A DNA stretch of 10,279 nt from Verrucomicrobiota bacterium (lineage in GTDB: Bacteria > Verrucomicrobiota > Verrucomicrobiia > Chthoniobacterales > UBA10450): positions 2,634 through 12,912 of the forward strand of contig QHRC01000017.1 in NCBI GenBank assembly GCA_003219995.1. The letters are read 5' to 3'. Within the stretch, counting starts at the first letter, position 1; each line of letters begins with the position of its first letter. A program made the position numbers and the translations under genes. Below, in pieces: positions 3,650 to 10,279 of the stretch. Under the pieces are notes generated by a model. It saw nothing but the letters and a program-made list of their open reading frames with translations. It was not told the origin of the DNA and did no database searches.

Positions 3650-5086
3650 TCAGTCAAGAAATTTTCCCGGATTCAAAATTCCGTCTGGATCGAGAATGTC
3701 TTTGAGCTTGTGATGCAGATCGCGCGCCACTTCGCTGGTTGCCTCCGGCCACCAGCGTTTTTTCGCGAGCCCGATCCCATGTTCGCCCGTGATGACGCCA
3801 CCCCAGGCCAGAATTTTCGCAAAAAGTTCGTCGAGCGCGTGCTCGACTTTGTTGCGCACGGCCGGATCGCGATTGAAACGATCAGCCATGATATTGACAT
3901 GAATATTTCCGTCGCCGGCATGACCGAAACAGGCGATCGGGAATCCATGTTTGCGCTGCAACATCTCCGCGAACTCGACAAGATCGACAATGCGACTTCG
4001 CGGCACGACCACATCCTGATTCAATTTCGTCAACCCGGTTGCGCGAAGCGAGTTGCTGAACTCGCGGCGAAGCGCCCAAAGCTTTTCACAATCAATTTCG
4101 CCTTCTGCCATTTCCAGCGCGTTTGGCTTTTTCCGGGCCAGTAATTCGCGAACCGCCGCCGCTTCGCCGCGCACGCTCTCCTCCTGTCCGTCAAGATCGA
4201 CAAGGAGATGCGCGCTGCCCGAGGGCACAATTGCTCTACCAATTTTCGCGCGTGCTGATTCCAAAGTGAAGCTGTCCGCGATCTCGAGCGACGAGGGCAA
4301 AAATCCCTGTGCGAAAATTTCCTGCACCGCTGCCGCCGCCTGCGACATCGTGGCAAATGCCGCGGACAAAGTCGCGCGCGCCGGCGGCAACGGAAGCAGC
4401 CGCAGAGTGATTTCCGTTACGACACCGAGCATTCCTTCCGAACCGACAAACAAGCTGATTAAATTGAACCCCGTTTTGTTTTTGTGGACGCGCCCTCCGG
4501 TTCGCAATACTTCGCCATCCGCAAGCACGACTTCGAGACCGATGACGTAATTGCGCGTCACGCCGTATTTTAAACAGCGTGGGCCACCGGCATTGGTCGC
4601 GATATTTCCACCAATGCTGCAATCCTTCATGCTCGCCGGATCCGGCGGATAAAATAATTTTTGCGCCCGAACCGCCGCTTTCAGATCCGCTGTGATCACA
4701 CCGGGTTCCACGATTGCGATCGCGTCCGCGAAGTGAATTTCCTTGATCCGATTCATCCGCATCAAAGAAAGCGCAATTCCTTTTCGAACCGGGACACAGC
4801 CGCCGACGTAGCCAAAACCCGCGCCACGCGCCGTCACCGAAATTTTCTTCTGCGATGCAAACTTCAACAGCTTGGAAACATCGCTTGCCGATCTGGCAAA
4901 CACGACAACCTCCGGCTCTTCTGCCGCGAACCATTTGTCGCCGCTGTGCGCCACGAGCGTTGCTTTATCGTCAGTGACAGCATCGTCGCCTAGCAATTTC
5001 CGCAGCTCGCTCGCGATACTCGTGCTCATGCTCCTGATCGTAATCGATCTTTTGTCGTTTCGATTAGGAGCACGAGTAACAATCAC
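3650..5086 (-). CDS. glcD: FAD-linked 2-hydroxy-acid oxidase/dehydrogenase, GlcD-type
   Basis: A member of the FAD_binding_4 plus FAD-oxidase_C (VAO/GlcD/D-lactate dehydrogenase) family, oxidising a D-2-hydroxy acid such as glycolate or D-lactate. The FAD-binding half shows TARGAGFGYVGG (85-96) in the pyrophosphate-loop position, GGNIATNAGGPRCLKYG (159-175) and VGSEGMLGVVTEITLRL (214-230). The C-terminal half has FGHAGDGNIH with His389 and His396, and GEHGIG with Glu435 and His436. In D-2-hydroxyglutarate/D-lactate dehydrogenases these are the metal-binding and catalytic positions. The protein ends in the family-typical ILDPDGILNPGKFL. The span given starts at GTG 5086, which overlaps the fabI stop as GTGA (478 residues). 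ATG 5029 (459 residues) fits the usual family N-terminus better, but its AGGAG is only 1 nt away. No GlcE/GlcF partner is present. The substrate is uncertain, so the symbol is family-level. Confidence 0.85.
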   Translation of the reverse strand: MIVTRAPNRNDKRSITIRSMSTSIASELRKLLGDDAVTDDKATLVAHSGDKWFAAEEPEVVVFARSASDVSKLLKFASQKKISVTARGAGFGYVGGCVPVRKGIALSLMRMNRIKEIHFADAIAIVEPGVITADLKAAVRAQKLFYPPDPASMKDCSIGGNIATNAGGPRCLKYGVTRNYVIGLEVVLADGEVLRTGGRVHKNKTGFNLISLFVGSEGMLGVVTEITLRLLPLPPARATLSAAFATMSQAAAAVQEIFAQGFLPSSLEIADSFTLESARAKIGRAIVPSGSAHLLVDLDGQEESVRGEAAAVRELLARKKPNALEMAEGEIDCEKLWALRREFSNSLRATGLTKLNQDVVVPRSRIVDLVEFAEMLQRKHGFPIACFGHAGDGNIHVNIMADRFNRDPAVRNKVEHALDELFAKILAWGGVITGEHGIGLAKKRWWPEATSEVARDLHHKLKDILDPDGILNPGKFLD

Positions 5087-5859
5087 ATGCCCATGATTTG
5101 ATAGCCGCCATCGACATAAATCACCTGGCCGGTAATCGCAGTCGCTCCATCGCTGGCGAGAAACACGCCCGTCGCACCAAGCTCGGCTGGATCACAGCTG
5201 CGTTTTAGCGGCGCGCGTTCTTGATAATGTTTCAACATCTGGGTGAAACCGCTGATGCCGCGCGCCGCCAGCGTTTGCACGGGCCCGGCGGAAATGCAAT
5301 TCACGCGGATCTTTTTGGGGCCAAGGTCGTAAGCAAGATAGCGCGTACTCGCTTCGAGACTCGCCTTTGCCACGCCCATTACGTTGTAATGCGGCACCAC
5401 TTTCTCCGAGCCATAATAAGTCATGGCCAGAATACTTCCGCCGTTTGTCATCATCGGCGCGACTTCGCGCGCAAGCGCGACCAGTGAGTAAGCGCTGATG
5501 TCATGCGCGACCCGGAATGCTTCGCGCGCTGTGCTGAGAAAATCGCCTTCCAATGCTTCCTTCGGCGCGAAGGCAAGCGAATGAAGCATAAGGTCGACAT
5601 GTTCGGTTTCGACGCGCACCTTTTCGAAGAAAGTCTTGATCTCGTCATCGCTCGACACATCACACGGAAAAAACGGTGTTTTTTCTCCAAACTCGCCGAC
5701 GAGCTCTTCCAGGTTTTCTTTCAGTCGCTCGCCTTGATAATTAAAAATCAATCGCGCGCCGGCCGCGGCCCACGCCCTCGCAATCGCCCAGGCAATGCTG
5801 CGTTTATTCGCCACGCCGAAGACCACGCCGGTTTTTCCTGCCAAAATTTGCTCAGTCAT
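5083..5859 (-). CDS. fabI: Enoyl-[acyl-carrier-protein] reductase (NADH), FabI
   Basis: A 258-residue short-chain dehydrogenase-type enoyl-ACP reductase, catalysing the last reductive step of type II fatty-acid elongation in the cytoplasm. It aligns with E. coli FabI along its length. The nucleotide-binding start is GVANKRSIAWAIA (15-27), and HSLAFAP (93-99) follows. The active site TYYGSEKVVPHYNVMGVAK places Tyr148, Tyr158 and Lys165 at the E. coli Tyr146, Tyr156 and Lys163 positions. SAGPVQTLAA (190-199) and VDGGY near the end are also conserved. Ala96 stands where E. coli has Gly93; Ala is common in other FabI proteins, so resistance should not be inferred. The ATG at 5859 is preceded by ACGGAG with a 4-nt spacer. 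The stop codon overlaps a possible GTG start of the downstream oxidase. A 17-bp palindrome lies just upstream of the ribosome-binding site. Confidence 0.95.
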   Translation of the reverse strand: MTEQILAGKTGVVFGVANKRSIAWAIARAWAAAGARLIFNYQGERLKENLEELVGEFGEKTPFFPCDVSSDDEIKTFFEKVRVETEHVDLMLHSLAFAPKEALEGDFLSTAREAFRVAHDISAYSLVALAREVAPMMTNGGSILAMTYYGSEKVVPHYNVMGVAKASLEASTRYLAYDLGPKKIRVNCISAGPVQTLAARGISGFTQMLKHYQERAPLKRSCDPAELGATGVFLASDGATAITGQVIYVDGGYQIMGM

Positions 5860-5963: not shown

Positions 5964-5993
5964 ACTTCACGCATCGTCAATAGCCAACAAAAT

Positions 5994-6055
5994 TGCAGAG
6001 CAGGCGCTCCGCTCTGCCGTTCTTTAATTTTGGCAAGCGATGCGCTTGCCCTACA
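5994..6055. repeat. REP-like inverted pair, TGTAGGGCA family (left copy degenerate)
   Basis: The right half (6032-6055) holds the perfect stem GGCAAGCG-ATG-CGCTTGCC followed by CTACA, which is the reverse complement of a TGTAGGGCA-headed hairpin. The left half (5994-6018) is an imperfect copy, AGCAGGCG-CTC-CGCTCTGCC, with an unpaired base in the stem and an altered head. The same family recurs at 8931-8994. The pair ends 33 bp before the start of the BNR-protein gene. An open frame running through it from 5993 is accidental and should not be taken as the N-terminus of that gene. Confidence 0.75.
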
Positions 6056-6088
6056 ACGCAGAAATCGTCATTGTCACAGGTCATGCCT

Positions 6089-8911
6089 ATGACTGCTCGA
6101 CTTTCAGTTCTCTCTGCTTGGCTGCTTTCAATTTGTCTCACTTCGCATTTGCCGGCCCAGGAAGAAACTCCGCGGAATGCTGCACCAGTCGGTGGCGCCT
6201 CGCCGAGTGCACCAGCGGTCAGCACCACTCCGCCATTATCGGCTTCCATAACGCCGATTCCAGCGCCCGTCCCGGCACAGCTCAGCGATGTTCTCTTCAA
6301 AAACCTGAAAGCGCGTGCCATCGGCCCAGCTGTGATGGGCGGTCGCGTTTCCGACATCGCGCTTGATCCGCGAAATCCTTTTGTCTTCTACGTCGGCCTC
6401 GGACACGGGGGCATTTTTAAAACAGGCGATAATGGCGTGTCGTTCGATCCGATTTTCGACAAGCAACCGATGCTTTCAATCGGCACCATCGCGATTGCGC
6501 CATCCGATTCCGAGATCATTTGGGTGGGCACGGGCGAAGCAAACGATCGCAATTCTTCCGGCTGGGGCGATGGCGTTTATCGATCGACCGATGCCGGCGA
6601 AAACTGGCAGAATGTCGGGCTTAAAAATAGCCGCGCCATTGCCCGCATCGTTGTCGATCCAAAGAAACCTGAAGTCGCTTATGTAGCCGCGGTGGGCCAT
6701 TTATGGGCCGACGGCGGCGAACGGGGTCTCTTCAAGACGACCGACGCAGGAAAAACCTGGAAACTTATTTTGCAAGCGCCGGCGCCCCACAACGCCCGCA
6801 CCGGTTGCGGGGACGTGATTATCGATCCAACTAATCCGGAAATTCTCTACGCGGCGCTCTACGCGCGACAACGTACGCCGTGGAGTTTTTCGTCCGGTCC
6901 CGCCGCCACGGACGGCGAAGACGTGGGCGGAATTTTCAAGAGCACAAATGGCGGCGCGAGTTGGAAAAAACTGAGCGGCGGCTTGCCTTCCCAAACCGGC
7001 CGTATTGGTCTCACGATTAGCGCAACCAATCCGAAAATTGTCATGGCAGTCGTGCAGAGTTATGAGGGTGGTTCCGGCCAGGTGACCGATCTGCGCAGCA
7101 AGAGTGGCGGCGTCTTTCGGTCCGAAGACGGCGGCGAAAAATGGGCCCGGGCCAGTGCGATGGATCCGCGTCCCTTTTATTTCAGTCAGATCCGCATCGA
7201 TCCGGCAAACGATCAACGCGTTTATTTGCTCGGTTTCGCATTGTTCGTATCGGACGACGGCGGAAAAAATTTCCGGGAAGATCTTTCCGAGAAAATTCAT
7301 CCCGATTGCCATGCGTTTGTCATTCAGCCGGGCACTGCGCCGCCGCCCAAGCCGCCAAAACCCGAAGACAAAAGCAAACCGCCCAAGCCTCCGGTTTGTC
7401 AGCGGTTGTTGCTGGGGACCGACGGGGGCATCTATCGAAGTTTTGCGGCCGGGAAAGGCTGGGATCATCTCAACCGGATTCCCGCCGGAGAATTTTACCG
7501 GATCACGCTGGACGATTCCAAACCTTACTACCGGATCGCCGGCGGCCTTCAGGACAACGAGAACTGGGTTGGGCCGAGCGGCGTGCCGAGCAAGGAAGGA
7601 ATCCGCAATTCGGATTGGATCGCGCTCGCGGGCGGCGACGGCTTTTACGTTTTATTCGATCCGGTCGATCACGATATGTTTTACGCCGAAAGTCAGGGCG
7701 GCGAAGTGCACCGGATCAATTTGCGAAACGGCGAACTGCGGCGTTTGCGACCAGAGCCGCCTGAAGGCGCGCCGAGGTATCGGTTTCATTGGAATTCGCC
7801 GCTGATCATGAGCCGTCACAAGCCGGGCGTAATCTATCTGGGCGGCAACTGCATCTTCAAGCTGACCGATCGCGCCGAAAAATATGCGCTCATCAGCCCG
7901 GACTTAACGCGCAATGATCCTACTCGCACAAACGCAACTGGCAGCGGCGCCGAAAATTACGGCGTTGTGTTCTCGCTGGCTGAATCGCCAAAACGCGCCG
8001 GTCTGTTGTGGGCCGGCACTGATGACGGCCGGCTTTGGGTCACTGAAAATGAAGGTGGCAAATGGATCGAGCTCACGAACAATTTGCCGGAACCGGCCCG
8101 TGGCGCGTGGGTTGTCCGGATCGAGCCAAGTTCGCACGATGTCAACGCGGCCTACGTTGTGACGAATTCTTATCGCGCCGGCGACGATCGCCCGATGATT
8201 TTGCACACTGTCGATCTTGGCAAGACCTGGCAATCGGTTGTGGGCGATCTCCCGGCGAACGATCCGGTCGAAGTTGTGCGTGAAGATCCAGTGAATCCGA
8301 AATTGCTTTATGCCGGTACGCACTTCGGATTGTTCGCGTCGTTCGATCAAGGCGCGCACTGGGTTCGCATTGGCGATGTTCCTTCGGTACGCGTCGACGA
8401 TATTCAAATACATCCGCGCACATCCGATCTTGTCATTGGAACACACGGACGAAGCATCGCGATTCTTGATGATTCAGTCCCATTGCGCGAGCTGACGCCC
8501 GAGATTGCGGCGAAACCGGCGCATTTATTCACGGTGCGTTCGGTTACTGGCGCTTATCTCCAACCCGGATTTGTCGATGCAAATGGCAAGGGGATCTACC
8601 GCGGACAAAACCCAGCCGAAGGCGCGCTCTTCACCGTCTGGGTGAAAGAATTTACCGGCGACGAAATTAAAATCGCAGTGACGAAATCGGGCGGGCAACC
8701 GGTGGCAAATTTAAAAGCGCCGGGCGCACCCGGCCTCACCCGGATGAATTGGGACCTGCGACCCACCAAAGATGTCAGCATCGAATACGGCGGGGACGAT
8801 CCGAAACGCCTTTTGCCCGCCGGTGACTACAACGCGGAACTAACCTTCGGCGCGTTGAAAGTGAAACAGAGCTTTCATGTCGATCTTGCCGAAGGAATTA
8901 CGCCCAGGTGA
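6089..8911 (+). CDS. Secreted BNR/Asp-box beta-propeller protein (sortilin/VPS10-like, often annotated glycosyl hydrolase)
   Basis: A 940-residue protein from ATG 6089, where AGG lies 8 nt upstream; ATG 6083 is a near alternative. The N-terminus is a signal peptide (MTARLSVLSAWLLSICLTSH, then LPAQEE). A linker rich in Pro, Ala and Ser follows, and then a large double-propeller region. At least nine Asp-box hairpins of the S/T-x-D-x-G-x-x-W type are visible, for example RSTDAGENW (165-173), KTTDAGKTW (216-224), KSTNGGASW (284-292), RSEDGGEKW (344-352) and HTVDLGKTW (706-714). GGLQDNENWVGPS (about 485-498) is a recurring motif of this family. A Lys/Pro-rich insert lies at about 415-436, and the last 100 residues look like a beta-sandwich tail. 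Such proteins are common in Verrucomicrobiota, Acidobacteriota and Bacteroidota. Their substrate is unknown, and the sialidase-like catalytic set is not evident, so an enzymatic name is not justified. It is probably periplasmic or extracellular. REP pairs stand on both sides of the gene. Confidence 0.85.
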   Translation: MTARLSVLSAWLLSICLTSHLPAQEETPRNAAPVGGASPSAPAVSTTPPLSASITPIPAPVPAQLSDVLFKNLKARAIGPAVMGGRVSDIALDPRNPFVFYVGLGHGGIFKTGDNGVSFDPIFDKQPMLSIGTIAIAPSDSEIIWVGTGEANDRNSSGWGDGVYRSTDAGENWQNVGLKNSRAIARIVVDPKKPEVAYVAAVGHLWADGGERGLFKTTDAGKTWKLILQAPAPHNARTGCGDVIIDPTNPEILYAALYARQRTPWSFSSGPAATDGEDVGGIFKSTNGGASWKKLSGGLPSQTGRIGLTISATNPKIVMAVVQSYEGGSGQVTDLRSKSGGVFRSEDGGEKWARASAMDPRPFYFSQIRIDPANDQRVYLLGFALFVSDDGGKNFREDLSEKIHPDCHAFVIQPGTAPPPKPPKPEDKSKPPKPPVCQRLLLGTDGGIYRSFAAGKGWDHLNRIPAGEFYRITLDDSKPYYRIAGGLQDNENWVGPSGVPSKEGIRNSDWIALAGGDGFYVLFDPVDHDMFYAESQGGEVHRINLRNGELRRLRPEPPEGAPRYRFHWNSPLIMSRHKPGVIYLGGNCIFKLTDRAEKYALISPDLTRNDPTRTNATGSGAENYGVVFSLAESPKRAGLLWAGTDDGRLWVTENEGGKWIELTNNLPEPARGAWVVRIEPSSHDVNAAYVVTNSYRAGDDRPMILHTVDLGKTWQSVVGDLPANDPVEVVREDPVNPKLLYAGTHFGLFASFDQGAHWVRIGDVPSVRVDDIQIHPRTSDLVIGTHGRSIAILDDSVPLRELTPEIAAKPAHLFTVRSVTGAYLQPGFVDANGKGIYRGQNPAEGALFTVWVKEFTGDEIKIAVTKSGGQPVANLKAPGAPGLTRMNWDLRPTKDVSIEYGGDDPKRLLPAGDYNAELTFGALKVKQSFHVDLAEGITPR

Positions 8912-9006: not shown

Positions 9007-9678
9007 TCAGCACGCGATCGCGTGCCTTCGGCAGACGCTGGAGAGCATTTCCCAAAGCGCGTCGAGAATGCGCTGCGCCGCGGCGCGCACCTTGTCGACG
9101 TTGTGATTGTCGATGTACCCGCTGAGCATGTTACGCTCAGCGGCGGAATGTTTGCGGTCGGCTTCGATGTGGACGCTGAAGTATTCGTAATGCTCGGGAT
9201 CGTTGAAGCCGTAATGCTTTTTCAATCCGTCGATTTTCGACTCGCAGATCGCCGGAATCTGGCTCTCGTAGGCATAAAGCGCGGCCAACCCTTCGGCCGT
9301 CGTTCCATCACGACAAGCTGATCGGAAAGTATCGATCAAGTTCTTCGTCTCCGGCCGTTGCTCCGTGTTCCGTACATCGACATCTTCGACGCCAAGACTT
9401 TCGGCAAATCTCAGCCAAAGCTCGGGATGATTGGGTGAGCCGCCTTCTTCATCGATCAAATTGGACAGGAGTTGCTTCCGCGTCGTTTGATCATCGCACT
9501 TCGCGTGCACGGTCGAGAGATACGTCGGAAACGCCGCGACATGATGATAGTACTGCTTTGCATAGTCCATTAGCGCCGCTTTGCTCAGCTCCCCGCGCGT
9601 CCAGGCGAGATAAAACGGATGTTTCAGGAGATGCTTCTCCGCGATGTCATTGTCGATCTTGTCGAGATGTTGGTTCAT
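9007..9678 (-). CDS. CADD-family (TenA/PqqC-like) diiron-type protein, probable self-sacrificing p-aminobenzoate synthase
   Basis: A 223-residue all-helical haem-oxygenase-fold protein that aligns with Chlamydia trachomatis CADD (CT610) with a constant 4-residue offset. The metal-binding set Glu77, His84, Glu138, His170, Asp174 and His177 matches the CADD ligands. Tyr23 (HPFYLAW), Tyr39 (MDYAKQYYHH) and Lys148 (ESKIDGLKKHYG) match Tyr27, Tyr43 and Lys152. In CADD these are linked to making p-aminobenzoate from the enzyme's own tyrosine with lysine as amino donor, which feeds folate synthesis. Other signatures are CDDQTTRKQLLSNLIDEE (61-78) and YAYESQIPAI (135-144). Residue equivalences rest on my recall of the chlamydial sequence. 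AGGGA lies 5 nt before the ATG. The gene appears monocistronic, with a REP pair after it. No other folate gene is in view. Chlamydial death-domain binding should not be assumed here. Confidence 0.85.
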   Translation of the reverse strand: MNQHLDKIDNDIAEKHLLKHPFYLAWTRGELSKAALMDYAKQYYHHVAAFPTYLSTVHAKCDDQTTRKQLLSNLIDEEGGSPNHPELWLRFAESLGVEDVDVRNTEQRPETKNLIDTFRSACRDGTTAEGLAALYAYESQIPAICESKIDGLKKHYGFNDPEHYEYFSVHIEADRKHSAAERNMLSGYIDNHNVDKVRAAAQRILDALWEMLSSVCRRHAIAC

Positions 9679-9849: not shown

Positions 9850-10071
9850 TCAGGCCGATTTCAAAATGTGTTTGATGCCGCGGATCGGGATGACGACCCA
9901 ATCGGGGCGATTGTTTAGTTCGTAGCCGATTTCGTAGACAGCTTTGTCGAGGAGGTAGGCTTCGAGAAGAATTTGGAGATCGTCTGAATTCTGCGGGACG
10001 AAGATGGCGCCAGGGGTTGTCTGCAAATAACTTTGGAGGAACACGCTGCTCATCTGGCGATACCAGAGATC
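9850..10071 (-). pseudogene. C-terminal remnant of maltokinase (TreS-maltokinase type)
   Basis: Seventy-three codons match the C-terminal end of bacterial maltokinase, the kinase domain often fused to trehalose synthase. Matching parts are DLWYRQMSSVFLQSYL, LLEAYLLDKAVYEIGYELNN and RPDWVVIPIRGIKHIL, followed by TGA at 9850-9852. Maltokinase makes maltose 1-phosphate in the TreS/GlgE route to alpha-glucan. Homology begins at about 10071, which is not a natural start. Five non-homologous codons upstream the frame meets TAA, and the sequence there belongs to the oppositely oriented transposase remnant. ATG 10053 could in principle give a 67-residue peptide, but it lacks any ATP-binding or catalytic core. 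I therefore call it a truncated pseudogene. An assembly join at this point is the main alternative. Confidence 0.75.
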
Positions 10072-10228
10072 GGGGGTACGGCGCGTTTAGCATCGGCGTT
10101 TCCGGAATCGATGCGACCGCGAGCTATATTCGGAATCAGACCGAACATCGACGCGCTCGTTTCGCGAAGAACTCGTGGCGATGCTCCGCAAGCACGGCTT
10201 CGATTATGACGAACGGATGCTTGATTGA
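10071..10228 (+). pseudogene. C-terminal remnant of a REP-associated (RAYT, Y1-type) transposase, frameshifted
   Basis: One frame reads GYGAFSIGVSGIDATASYIR then NQTEHRR (10074-10154), the pattern of the last helix region of RAYT/IS200-like HUH transposases (GYGAFSV...YI.NQ..HH). After roughly 10155 the family pattern continues in another frame as RSFREELVAMLRKHGFDYDE then RMLD, ending in TGA at 10226-10228. A net change of one base (or an equivalent indel) near 10150-10160 explains the switch. The N-terminal two thirds, including the HUH motif, are missing because the left side is maltokinase sequence. It is therefore a dead fragment. RAYT proteins are known to be linked to REP hairpins, which are abundant in this window. 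Confidence 0.7.
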
Positions 10229-10235
10229 TTCTTTC

Positions 10236-10250
10236 GTCCCTGTCGGGACT
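10236..10250. repeat. Hairpin GTCCC-TGTC-GGGAC just after the transposase remnant
   Basis: A 5-bp GC-rich stem with a 4-base loop lies 8 bp after the transposase stop codon, where RAYT genes usually carry a REP. Its right side, TGTCGGGACT (10241-10250), is the exact complement of AGTCCCGACA at 9815-9824. The window ends in CCCAGCGC (10272-10279), which looks like the first arm of a further hairpin. Nothing else is recognisable in 10229-10279. Confidence 0.5.
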
Positions 10251-10279
10251 CGCTCGTCTTGAAACCATTTACCCAGCGC

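Follow-up and report, generated by a model that had tools for sequence, protein, structure and literature searches.

Two proteins of the CADD family have been reported to make p-aminobenzoate (pABA) by sacrificing their own residues: CADD itself (CT610 of Chlamydia trachomatis; PDB 1rcw, 8va9 and 8vag) and NePabS (NE1434) of Nitrosomonas europaea. The NePabS gene complements a pabABC deletion of E. coli; the enzyme uses up its own Tyr25 and Lys159 and cannot do without Tyr41, Tyr45 and Trp99 also play a part, and the choice between an Fe/Fe and an Mn/Fe cofactor lies with Phe148 and Phe177 (PMC11965152). The same study gives Tyr27, Lys152, Tyr141 and Tyr170 as the CADD counterparts and had pointed to relatives in Chloroflexi, Sphingomonas, Nitrosomonas, Wolbachia and Rickettsia. 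Here we describe a stretch of 10,279 nucleotides of Verrucomicrobiota DNA (the window, taken at its full length), in which positions 9007..9678 of the reverse strand (ATG at 9678, stop at 9007) encode a 223-residue, putatively self-sacrificing pABA synthase of the CADD family. We consider it probable, at roughly 0.87, that this protein is a single-turnover synthase of the CADD/PabS type that replaces PabA, PabB and PabC in the soil family to which the genome belongs. Judging from the titles of relatives' genomes, the family is probably that of Udaeobacter and probably free-living. The nearest named relatives were titled Spartobacteria, Chthoniobacterales, Verrucomicrobia AVnn and Candidatus Udaeobacter, in a comparison by relatedness that covers the best 80 of 235 loci and from which distant relatives are absent.

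Family membership and key residues

The protein matches TIGR04305, "CADD family putative folate metabolism protein", with 305.9 bits (E 1.4e-91) against a curated cut-off of 200, and contains the Pfam domains PF14518 and PF03070. Its closest PDB sequences are CT610/CADD (1rcw, E 1.4e-57), 8va9 and 9pj4, the latter two both named 4-aminobenzoate synthase in the PDB, and its predicted fold is heme-oxygenase-like, helical and close to that of CADD. A close Verrucomicrobiota relative (P0093) carries the TIGR04305 name at NCBI. Among the 120 matches listed for the window protein, the nearest of 7669 and including the protein itself (P0001), the JGI names are still pyrroloquinoline-quinone synthase. 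These names would fit an enzyme such as PqqC, or another catalytic heme-oxygenase-like dimetal oxidase (HDO) that acts on a small-molecule substrate. PqqC belongs to the same superfamily, and its model, TIGR02111, does match at E 2.3e-19. The score is 69.8 bits against a cut-off of 240, on which a PqqC/TenA identity was rejected, and we regard a catalytic enzyme of this kind as very improbable.

The initial annotation had claimed that six metal ligands and three residues tied to pABA formation (Tyr23, Tyr39 and Lys148) are present at a constant offset from CADD, and both the translation and an alignment with CT610 bear this out. The phmmer alignment to 1rcw is free of gaps through all the key positions, with a single gap later, near residue 187, so that Tyr23 and Lys148 do correspond to the CADD residues; CADD numbers equal those of the full window reading frame plus 4. 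All six ligands, three His and three carboxylates, are in place (Glu77, His84, Glu138, His170, Asp174 and His177), and the CADD ligand numbers given in the initial annotation agree with this offset. Tyr23 (codon 9610..9612, reverse strand) is the counterpart of the sacrificed Tyr27 of CADD and Tyr25 of NePabS, and Lys148 (9235..9237, reverse strand) that of the amine donor, Lys152 of CADD and Lys159 of NePabS, with the roles taken from PMC11965152. By our own reading of the offsets and of the 9pj4 alignment, Tyr39, the essential second tyrosine, together with Tyr43 and Trp88, would correspond to Tyr41, Tyr45 and Trp99 of NePabS. Tyr137 and Tyr166, considered below, complete a set of 13 key residues.

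In an alignment of the window protein with those of 131 loci, which is redundant, contains some genomes twice and consists mostly of close relatives, all 13 residues are kept in 127 of the 132 rows. Given this conservation and the TIGR04305 score, we regard chance as excluded as the source of the CADD match and the residue set. The five deviating rows have His137 (two rows), a gap at position 148 (two rows), or both Phe137 and Ala177 (one row). The last of these is L168:2000-2554 from genome G036, a shorter homologue scoring 86.8 bits, below the family cut-off, in which Ala replaces the last His ligand; it has possibly decayed or been repurposed. Two further CADD copies, L055:8001-8795 and G004:C74:12942-13706, perhaps from one genome, carry about 43 extra codons within the match as an in-frame extra stretch.

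By analogy with the two characterised relatives, the dimetal site would activate O2 and a radical would travel to Tyr23 by way of tyrosines and perhaps Trp88. The side chain of Tyr23 would then be cleaved to provide the pABA ring, leaving glycine behind, and Lys148 would supply the amine. The spent protein would never be reused. Dihydropteroate synthase (FolP) would then couple the pABA to the pterin.

pABA and folate genes in the family and beyond

Further to the residues, the initial annotation had made the proposal depend on the absence of pabABC from the genome, and the results from the available assembly (2.1 Mb in 285 contigs, 77% complete) come out in its favor. The pabB model matches one protein, G000:C6:674-1753, which adjoins trpC and is evidently TrpE: it scores 556.5 with the TrpE model (cut-off 517.7) and 281.0 with PabB (cut-off 328.4). 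The PabA/TrpG model gives one strong match, cut by the contig end and lying beside trpE on the same contig, at 111.2 bits (cut-off 121.05), and weaker ones at 77.2, 54.2 and 23.1 bits. Neither of the two class IV aminotransferases reaches a PabC cut-off; both best fit a branched-chain transaminase, one over the cut-off and the other a fragment at a contig edge. folK is present.

The family as a whole presents the same picture. CADD exceeds its cut-off in 61 of 83 family genomes, folP is found in 77, folK in 71, and pabB exceeds its cut-off in none of the 83. Among the 30 good genomes (completeness of 90% or more, contamination of 5% or less), 24 have a CADD match, in three cases only as pieces at contig edges (G013, G050 and G068), and all 30 have both folP and folK. 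In 57 family genomes the pabB model finds matches below its cut-off. The possibility that the family's single chorismate enzyme is PabB was rejected, since 9 of 9 such proteins, scanned from eight of the 57 genomes (the window's own, G019, G028, G036, G037, G043, G056 and, with two proteins, G072), pass an anthranilate synthase cut-off. At the level of the family, then, CADD appears to stand in for absent pabABC genes while folK and folP are kept; for the window's own genome this holds in part, with no PabB and with folK.

A draw of 288 genomes from the phylum, at least 90% complete except for the window's own, and with CADD matches accepted at E values up to 1e-30, places the family in a wider context. 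CADD was found in three of these genomes, all from the window's family, and pabB over its cut-off in 104, none of them a CADD bearer. Three of the genomes in which pabB passes (G206, G337 and G360) represent three other families of the same order. By hand count, 83 of the 288 genomes have one pabB-model match and 31 have none. Outside the Verrucomicrobiota we considered 27 CADD-bearing genomes (27 of the 30 loci among L083-L118, with L099, L104 and L115 left out and genome completeness not stated), from Acidobacteriota, Armatimonadota, Chlamydiota, Calditrichota, Zixibacteria and Polyangiaceae. Ten of these have no chorismate enzyme, 16 have one and one has two, so that 26 of 27 have at most one, compared with 114 of 288 in the phylum draw. 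A scan of 10 of the 18 chorismate proteins involved puts three over the TrpE cut-off and four over those of TrpEG fusion models; two best fit TrpE below its cut-off, and one is an isochorismate synthase. Some candidates for PabB were rejected. Reading frames of 711-729 residues in four Acidobacteriota might have been PabB fusions, with chorismate-binding and GATase domains in both of the two checked with Pfam; all four exceed TrpE-clade3/TrpEG cut-offs. A protein of G369 reaches 335 with the PabB model (cut-off 328.4), against 591.7 with TrpE (cut-off 517.7).

Several observations weigh against a replacement of PabABC by CADD. A search for folP in the window's own genome, at 77% completeness, found none; all three other genomes of the genus (3 of 3) have it. 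The initial annotation had described the gene as standing alone, and this holds for the window, where CADD has no adjacent folate genes and a Pfam scan of eight open reading frames shows no folate enzyme among them. Nor is a missing PabB confined to CADD bearers: most of the phylum genomes with one pabB-model match or none are without CADD, and two of the same order with 0.9 Mb (G117 and G138) have one sub-threshold pabB match and no CADD. Six of the 30 good family genomes (G019, G028, G034, G035, G037 and G056) have neither CADD nor PabB over the cut-off, which implies that loss of pABA synthesis altogether, or assembly gaps, also occurs. Finally, 80 of the 83 family genomes lack a match to classical dihydrofolate reductase (DHFR, PF00186), so that the last step of the pathway, to tetrahydrofolate, is also in question; in the remaining three, all of genus g6, the match to the model is partial and scores 25.7-32.4 bits (cut-off 25).

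As to the six good genomes, all of which keep folK and folP, they may be pABA auxotrophs, may use a third route or may reflect gaps in assembly.

These same gaps, in the six genomes, in DHFR and in the many other members of the phylum with neither PabB nor CADD, would be expected if the protein kept the family residues but had another role in this lineage, the bacteria being auxotrophs that draw pABA or folate from the soil. Vitamin B9 synthesis has likewise been called partial in a published genome of Ca. Udaeobacter (PMC7343977), a gap on which our results bear. On the other side, the presence of folK and folP in every good family genome would make little sense without a source of pABA, and even the divergent CADDs described below, from genus g5, retain all the sacrificial residues. 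We consider auxotrophy with a reassigned CADD very improbable, though a shade less so than a PqqC-like enzyme, and favor a single-turnover pABA synthase in place of PabABC.

Metal choice

The two positions that decide the metal in NePabS are both Tyr in the window protein. Tyr137 (codon 9268..9270, reverse strand) is the counterpart of Tyr141 in CADD and Phe148 in NePabS, and Tyr166 (9181..9183, reverse strand) that of Tyr170 and Phe177 (roles from PMC11965152), which places the protein with the Mn/Fe subgroup by residue. Among the 120 matches listed for the window protein, both tyrosines are present in all 120, one of which has lost Asp174. In comparison, among the 120 matches listed for the Nitrosomonas-type chain 9pj4 (the nearest relatives, from 4638), position 137 is Phe in 120 and position 166 in 118. 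The Tyr/Tyr pair is also found in aligned rows titled Acidobacteriota, Armatimonadota and others. Because both positions are Tyr, as in CADD, an Mn/Fe rather than an Fe/Fe cofactor is predicted, with less assurance than the pABA synthase assignment itself. In favor of this prediction, the F148Y/F177Y changes switched NePabS to Mn/Fe (PMC11965152). Against it, changes at the same positions in CADD are described, in the citation of Phan et al. within that paper, as yielding a protein that accepts either metal, with no full switch; that the window protein has no clear preference for Mn/Fe keeps a fair chance, somewhat short of even.

The use of Mn/Fe by Chlamydia has been suggested to be an answer to iron restriction by the host (PMC11965152), and CtCADD is called the only known HDO with Fe/Mn in PMC13108848. 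If the Tyr pair does set the metal, its presence in soil bacteria would speak against the iron-restriction explanation, which is a prediction and no result. A broader proposal can be made: that most of a free-living soil family, kin of the globally abundant Ca. Udaeobacter, gave up pabABC and makes pABA one molecule per protein with a chlamydial-type Mn/Fe enzyme. On this view Mn/Fe would be the usual version of self-sacrifice among free-living Verrucomicrobiota, Acidobacteriota, Armatimonadota and others, with the nitrifiers and their Fe/Fe enzyme as the exception, and iron restriction by the host would not account for the use of manganese. We offer this combined proposal tentatively, at slightly less than even odds. 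The Mn/Fe-linked Tyr pair in these lineages opens the published host-iron explanation to a direct test on a harmless protein.

Origin, surroundings and relation to known systems

In a midpoint-rooted tree of 57 rows, hand-picked from the available loci, a single clade (97/86) unites the main Verrucomicrobial CADDs, 19 rows in all, and stands with weak support (87/75) next to Chlamydiota and one row from Polyangiaceae. Those of genus g5 (L160-L167), from the same family, lie on a distant long branch (100/100), are about 40-44% identical to the window protein, keep all 13 key residues and adjoin a redoxin and a DUF488 gene; perhaps they represent an independent acquisition. We infer that CADD originated here by transfer. 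In viral contigs two stretches matched a search pattern for CADD, neither of them a relative.

Upstream of CADD lies the 3' end of a trehalose synthase-maltokinase gene (10204..10279, reverse strand), which continues beyond the window; L180:3838-7176 has the alpha-amylase and maltokinase-cap domains. In 47 of 97 partly redundant loci a gene of this sequence cluster precedes CADD on the same strand, and the copy in L039 is 92.5% identical to that of the window locus. Between the complete gene and CADD, window positions 9856-10071 (reverse strand; L180:3490-3705) repeat the last 72 residues of the trehalose synthase-maltokinase, at 97% identity to residues 1041-1112 of the L039 copy; this is either a tandem duplication of part of the gene or an effect of assembly. 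An enoyl-acyl carrier protein reductase of the FabI type (5083..5859, reverse strand; PF13561) is a recurrent neighbor in relatives: FabI relatives occur near CADD in 20 of 130 loci and GlcD relatives in 19 of 130, counts kept low by short flanks. A functional link of FabI, GlcD or trehalose synthase to pABA was considered and set aside; the linkage recurs, and we see no reason for a tie. Convergent to CADD is a gene for a 972-residue protein (5993-8911, forward strand) in which Pfam identifies Sortilin/Vps10-type and BNR repeats.

If a one-use enzyme is the only visible route to pABA in most of a soil family, the strategy is viable outside parasites and nitrifiers, and since such enzymes are costly, a sole route of this kind would demonstrate that viability. 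A full-text search combining Verrucomicrobi, CADD and p-aminobenzo returned, by its listing, only a review of drug metabolism, and searches on Udaeobacter folate or auxotrophy and on CT610 and folate gave no title on CADD in this lineage; most subscription papers lie outside the scope of these searches.

How, then, does the protein compare with known systems? With PqqC it has the heme-oxygenase-like fold in common, with only 20% identity to 1otw. CADD differs in its host, which here is probably a free-living soil bacterium, and in its surroundings: the Chlamydia gene clusters with folABKP (PMC1971073), whereas the window gene is not among folate genes. NePabS resembles the window protein in its sacrificial Tyr and Lys, in the counterparts of Tyr41, Tyr45 and Trp99 and in a free-living host. 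It differs in having Phe at both metal-side positions, as do the relatives of 9pj4, and in its preference for Fe/Fe (PMC11965152). The nearest named relatives of the 9pj4 chain among the matches listed are Nitrosomonas; compared with the window protein, 9pj4 carries an insertion of 9 residues, and NePabS is described as having a loop of about 10 residues without counterpart in CADD (PMC11965152). The initial suggestion of self-sacrifice in a non-parasitic bacterium outside the Chlamydiae thus gains from the residue set and from the pabABC results, and loses its implied novelty, given the published N. europaea gene (PMC11965152) and the name that NCBI has already attached to P0093. Self-sacrifice by CADD and NePabS was known, and the window protein adds a probable member to that kind; what is informative here is the apparent replacement at the level of a family.
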